Below are positions 51,676 to 62,008 of a DNA stretch of 64,000 nucleotides, piece by piece. The stretch spans positions 21,023,503 through 21,087,502 of the forward strand of contig NC_135551.1 of the NCBI RefSeq assembly GCF_964340395.1, read 5' to 3'. This DNA comes from Glandiceps talaboti (lineage: Eukaryota; Hemichordata; Enteropneusta; Spengelidae). Below the pieces are notes generated by a model, which had not been told where the DNA came from, did no database searches, and worked only from the letters and a program-made list of their open reading frames with translations. Within the stretch, counting starts at the first letter, position 1; the number at the start of each line of letters is the position of its first letter. Both the position numbers and the translations under genes were made by a program.

Positions 51676-62008
<10,333 letters not shown>

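Follow-up and report, generated by a model that had tools for sequence, protein, structure and literature searches.

A probable four-nucleotide coding exon in the MPC1 gene of the hemichordate Glandiceps talaboti

Introduction

Exon 2 of the human and mouse MPC1 genes is a constitutive microexon of 4 bp, with the sequence TACG in human (Koh et al. 2023, PMC9929638). In intron 1 of the human gene the pyrimidine tract occupies positions -67 to -43 (22 pyrimidines of 25), the branch points lie at about -68 and -64/-63, with a minor one at -57, and a direct TGTCTG repeat is located downstream of the tract (PMC9929638). According to the same study, no skipping of the 4-bp exon is detectable, even under cycloheximide, lariats form from both flanking introns, and 67 nt upstream plus 6 nt downstream suffice for the use of the exon within foreign introns. 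An exon cut to 2, 1 or even 0 bp is still processed; loss of the acceptor leads to retention of intron 1, and loss of the donor to skipping of the exon. Koh et al. proposed that the distal tract eases the crowding of the two splice sites (PMC9929638).

Here we describe a related arrangement in a stretch of 64,000 nt from the genome of Glandiceps talaboti (the window; positions refer to it unless another source is given), where the hemichordate MPC1 gene very probably has a constitutive coding exon of only four nucleotides, TACT, the orthologue of exon 2 in human MPC1. The two exons are alike in gene, length, consequence for the reading frame and long flanking introns; judging from TACG and the protein, they would also supply the same two codons. 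Both are preceded by a tract at -67 to -43, and a candidate distant branch point is predicted at -73 in Glandiceps. They differ in sequence (TACG versus TACT), and perhaps in the separate 16-nt exon that follows the Glandiceps microexon. Furthermore, the human exon has been seen in RNA, whereas the Glandiceps exon is predicted from genomic sequence and was missed by the public model. An earlier note on this DNA had proposed a comparison with the exon structure of vertebrate MPC1, and the published 4-bp human exon 2, TACG (PMC9929638), provides it. The 4-nt MPC1 exon itself is thus already published for human and mouse (PMC9929638). What is new, as far as the literature was searched, is the occurrence of an orthologue in a hemichordate whose acceptor region is laid out alike, the probable error in the public model, and a 16-nt exon of its own directly downstream; the word "invertebrate" is absent from the main text of PMC9929638.

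Two other described groups of exons resemble TACT in part. Distant-branch-point exons (Gooding et al. 2006, PMC1431707) likewise combine a branch motif and a tract, both towards the 5' end of a long zone free of AG. Alternative splicing is described as overrepresented in that class (PMC1431707), whereas the Glandiceps exon must be constitutive for the frame to be kept; the branch point in Glandiceps is a predicted one. The 1-nt plant microexons of APC11 and VPS55 (PMC8831610) are similarly frame-essential, very short, old, followed by a GTRAGT donor and absent from reference annotations; they differ from the MPC1 exon in genes, kingdom and size, and shared ancestry is not implied.

The MPC1 gene of Glandiceps talaboti

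Six coding exons on the minus strand, with the splicing read from the window, constitute the gene of mitochondrial pyruvate carrier 1 (MPC1), with a total coding length of 384 nt and a product of 127 aa (slashes mark splice junctions here and below):

61938..62008, minus strand: exon 1, coding part, 71 nt, ending in ATG AG; donor GAG/GTTAGT
55980..55983, minus strand: putative 4-nt microexon TACT, completing Ser24 and coding for Thr25
55429..55444, minus strand: 16-nt exon CATTTCTGGGGACCAG, beginning with CAT TTC and coding for HFWGP plus G
55006..55086, minus strand: exon 4, 81 nt
53310..53442, minus strand: exon 5, 133 nt; donor GA/GTGAGT
51676..51754, minus strand: exon 6, the last coding exon, 79 nt including the stop codon; HLGGREQ...ESAK

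All introns are of the GT-AG type, all exons are open, and the protein aligns over its whole length. The reading extends beyond HHE, where the exon 5 donor GA/GTGAGT overlaps an apparent TGA stop; exon 6 agrees with the NCBI protein model. The protein scores 118.1 bits against the Pfam family MPC (PF03650; cut-off 27). Among solved structures the best matches of its first 102 aa are MPC1 (4e-48), with MPC2 at 2e-6, and by best match the protein is assigned to MPC1 rather than MPC2. A second match to the MPC family in the species' own assembly (590 Mb, 47 contigs) lies on the contig that carries MPC1, about 2.8 Mb away (locus L001, G000:C4:18262396-18262536, minus strand), and is presumably MPC2.

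The microexon and the reading frame

On the minus strand, positions 55980-55983 and their surroundings read catcag/TACT/gtaagtat, exactly as the earlier note had it in placing TACT between CATCAG and a GTAAGT donor. Splicing with TACT yields YLM-ST-HFWGP in frame and an MPC1 of 127 aa, and the in-frame translation thus agrees with the claim of the note that TACT supplies the four bases missing from YLMSTHFWGP. The second microexon of 16 nt that the note placed next is present as well. When exon 1 is joined straight to the 16-nt exon, the frame shifts and a stop is reached 13 residues after YLM; since skipping has this consequence, inclusion of TACT must be near-complete for MPC1 to be produced.

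The note had further held the Ser-Thr pair to be conserved in the family. In our first homology search the pair was found in 119 of the 120 best of 2,121 matches; only the public model of Glandiceps talaboti itself departs from it, which leaves 119 of 119 other listed proteins with Ser-Thr. The Pfam MPC score is 118.1 with ST versus 115.5 with RL, the residues of the public model. The own assembly contains the 111-nt stretch around the TACT exon once; there, the spliced DNA of exons 1-4, used in the search for a processed mRNA copy, had no matches other than exons 1 and 4 of the MPC1 locus. Searches for relatives' DNA gave three pattern stretches with a single protein and four with alignment A2 in viral contigs, and 28 with alignment A2 in prokaryote genome contigs, none of which was confirmed.

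Chance expectation and splice-site scores

The span between exon 1 and the 16-nt exon comprises 6,493 nt. It holds two matches to AG/YACN/GT, whose expected number is 0.81; at least one match also turned up in 56.6% of 1,000 dinucleotide shuffles. The extended pattern AG/YACN/GTRAGT occurs once versus 0.009 expected, and TACT is the only AG/NNNN/GTRAGT match in the span. Taken as AG/YACN/GT, the scan by which the earlier note had arrived at TACT is thus weak evidence by itself.

Splice sites were scored with standard matrices. On this scale, of the 291 possible internal exons of 1-60 nt that keep the frame, TACT comes 12th by summed score and 10th by donor, a rank that counts against a purely sequence-based call. 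No acceptor in the gene scores lower than that of TACT (2.17). On the same matrices its donor is the best among the 19 in-frame 4-nt candidates (6.46, the next being 3.37), only two of which, TACT and CACT, code for Ser-Thr. The latter candidate, at 59171-59174, is the second AG/YACN/GT match; it was rejected with its poor donor GTCTTA (score -5.55). All eight intronic bases of the TACT donor fit the consensus, and the octamer occurs only once in the span. No alternative in-frame acceptor for the 16-nt exon was found within 150 nt.

55972..55979, minus strand: microexon donor GTAAGTAT

The acceptor region

The region upstream of TACT fits the distant-branch-point layout, with an AG-free zone of 88 nt, a predicted branch point in TTAAC at -73 and a tract at -67 to -43, an interval taken from the study of human MPC1 (PMC9929638):

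55986..56073, minus strand: AG-free zone, 88 nt, upstream of the microexon acceptor
56026..56050, minus strand: distal pyrimidine tract, -67 to -43, 23 pyrimidines of 25
56056, minus strand: candidate branch-point A in TTAAC, -73, just upstream of the tract

The acceptor region lends support of an independent kind. Among the 327 AGs scored in the span, the TACT acceptor alone has at least 22 pyrimidines of 25 at -67 to -43; across both strands of the whole window this holds for 26 of 6,573 AGs. AG-free runs of at least 88 nt precede five of the 327 AGs, the TACT acceptor included, and the combination of a distal tract with a long AG-free run is found at three of the 6,573 AGs in the window. 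Further branch-like yTnAy motifs lie at -94, -26 and -19 beside TTAAC at -73. The direct TGTCTG repeat of human MPC1 is absent from the 120 nt upstream of TACT.

We suggest that the Glandiceps microexon uses the same exon-definition mechanism as human MPC1 exon 2. A 4-nt exon is too short for exonic enhancers, and keeping it therefore needs flanking sequence that works unaided. Under the proposed mechanism, U1 snRNP would recognise the microexon donor, while U2 and U2AF would bind the branch point and the pyrimidine tract about 43 to 73 nt upstream, not against the exon. With the tract at this distance, the U1 and U2/U2AF complexes could fit around four nucleotides and jointly define the exon, and the AG that ends the AG-free zone would be the first acceptor available. 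The shared layout points to the acceptor geometry as the selected part. If the layouts are inherited, the exon and its distal tract date back to the deuterostome ancestor at least.

The public protein model and alternative readings

The NCBI model P0001 of Glandiceps talaboti is the closest of the listed proteins, with 125 of 127 residues identical and RL in place of ST. Two elements of the window bear on this difference and on the choice of exon:

61934..61937, minus strand: GTTA, a 4-nt extension of exon 1 with the rival donor TTA/GTGGGG, which yields P0001 exactly
55827..55833, minus strand: rival 7-nt exon TACACTG, which would yield YLM-STL-HFWGP

A tandem donor, by which exon 1 plus GTTA is joined to the 16-nt exon at GTGGGG, reads YLM-RL-HFWGP in frame, matches P0001 at 127 of 127 residues and requires no microexon. 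We nevertheless regard its use as very improbable. Its donor scores 2.13 versus 7.46 for GAG/GTTAGT only 4 nt upstream and agrees with the consensus at 4 of 11 positions versus 7 of 11; RL occurs in none of the 119 other proteins listed among the 2,121 matches, and the sites of TACT and its distal tract are left without explanation. Other exon 1 donors from -60 to +300 are open in frame at -35, +4 and +19 only, and just one of these, +4, retains YLM and exactly two residues before HFWGP. That the gene is a decaying copy, in which Ser-Thr was simply lost, finds its sole support in the gap itself and is extremely unlikely given the open exons, the GT-AG introns and the full-length protein alignment; moreover, the spliced coding DNA matched nowhere else in the own assembly, which holds one other MPC-family match.

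The strongest competitor by score is the 7-nt exon TACACTG, which ranks first of the 291 in-frame candidates by summed score (acceptor 7.45, donor 8.12), follows 103 nt without AG, more than the 88 nt at TACT, and also codes for Ser-Thr. Its use in place of TACT would insert a Leu before His26, whereas ST directly precedes this invariant residue in 119 of 119 other listed proteins. TACACTG also sits within CATC and GTAC simple repeats and, unlike the human exon, has only 12 pyrimidines of 25 at -67 to -43, and we consider it a very remote candidate, second to TACT among the microexons. What decides for TACT is the conservation in the family, with no residue added before His26, together with the acceptor region and the precedent of the human exon. 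We therefore return to the reading with TACT and conclude that the public NCBI model probably contains an annotation error of the type described for plant microexons (PMC8831610), which TACT would correct at two strongly conserved residues.

MPC1 models of fungi and of other species of animals

For two additional homology searches, the score covered only the part downstream of Ser-Thr, so that models wrong at the junction could rank high. The best 120 of 1,897 and the best 120 of 1,816 matches, together with the first list, comprise 238 distinct proteins. The motif was present in 235 of these (179 canonical, 18 with ST and a different upstream part, 38 without ST), and three were unmatched. 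In a second sort, with slightly different patterns and a slightly lower canonical total, the exon 1 part was present in 196 listed models and missing in 39. Fungi were assigned by name from a hand-made list, with P0151 and P0208 placed by judgement. Among the 33 fungi of the 196, 16 have ST, 11 have YLMR, three have YLMST-V[RS] and three have S followed by other residues. Of the 163 non-fungi (P0100 counted by eye), 161 have ST and two have R, one from Glandiceps and the other from the snail Batillaria.

The genera behind the 17 odd models in fungi are Gigaspora, Rhizophagus, Mortierella, Linnemannia, Podila, Entomortierella, Actinomortierella and Fennellomyces:

Odd fungal models, first part: P0142, P0152, P0158, P0168, P0170, P0177, P0181, P0185, P0186
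Odd fungal models, second part: P0187, P0189, P0190, P0197, P0202, P0205, P0209, P0233
Odd snail model: P0149, scrambled between YLM and HFWGP

The odd fungal models break at the very junction at which the Glandiceps model does and conserve exon 1 through YLM and everything from HFWGP onward; the inserted residues vary among the odd models, even across three models of Linnemannia elongata (P0186, P0187, P0233). Ser-Thr is present in the models of Glomus, Diversispora, Dissophora, Benniella and Gamsiella, as well as in Basidiomycota, Kickxella-type and chytrid-type models (grouped by judgement). The odd models are what a gene finder would be expected to produce if exon 1 ends in AG/GT, HFWGP opens an exon and 4 nt are missed. 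The YLMR models look as if exon 1 had been read into its own GT donor, and in the YLMST-V[RS] models the Thr codon looks as if it ran on into an unspliced GTRAG donor. Similar traces occur in animals. Models that start with Q directly before HFWGP, in the spider Caerostris, the mite Halotydeus and the brachiopod Lingula (isoform X2), appear as if a CAG acceptor before His had been read through. Models with F, Y or H before ST-HFWGP, in the coral Dendronephthya (isoform X2), the snail Biomphalaria, the sponge Halichondria and the fungus Apophysomyces, appear as if the same had happened to an AG acceptor before TACN.

If the traces are read in this way, fungi and animals would each show the two intron positions, in favour of an opisthokont ancestor that already had the 4-nt exon. 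We give about even credence to an MPC1 exon of 4 nt that predates the animal-fungus split and has been retained by humans, acorn worms and Mucoromycota-type fungi, most lineages having lost one of the flanking introns; this reading is drawn from protein models, the fungal ones coming from error-prone automatic annotation. If true, the exon would be one of the oldest microexons known. The failures at the fungal junction offer a simple test of how microexons are defined and of how often annotation overlooks them.

Other features of the window

Long (TA)n tracts are located in introns 4 and 1 of MPC1, at 53680-54177, 54490-54590 and 59021-59261, and an inverted-repeat search returned mostly the TA tracts themselves. 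Beside the tracts in both introns, a similar unit, TTACGCTCTGCCACTGCGG...TATAGAGCACTGT or near it, was noticed by eye and is perhaps a mobile element. The open frames at 62732-63489 and 7136-7684, both on the minus strand, resemble by eye the ends of LINE-type reverse transcriptase genes; in a Pfam search of LINE-like open frames, the first two matched no family and the third gave only an ALKBH8_N match below the cut-off. Finally, an open frame of 412 aa at 41108-42346 on the plus strand contains a rhodopsin-family receptor domain (PF00001, E-value 2.4e-62) and apparently encodes a GPCR, or a large portion of it, in a single exon.
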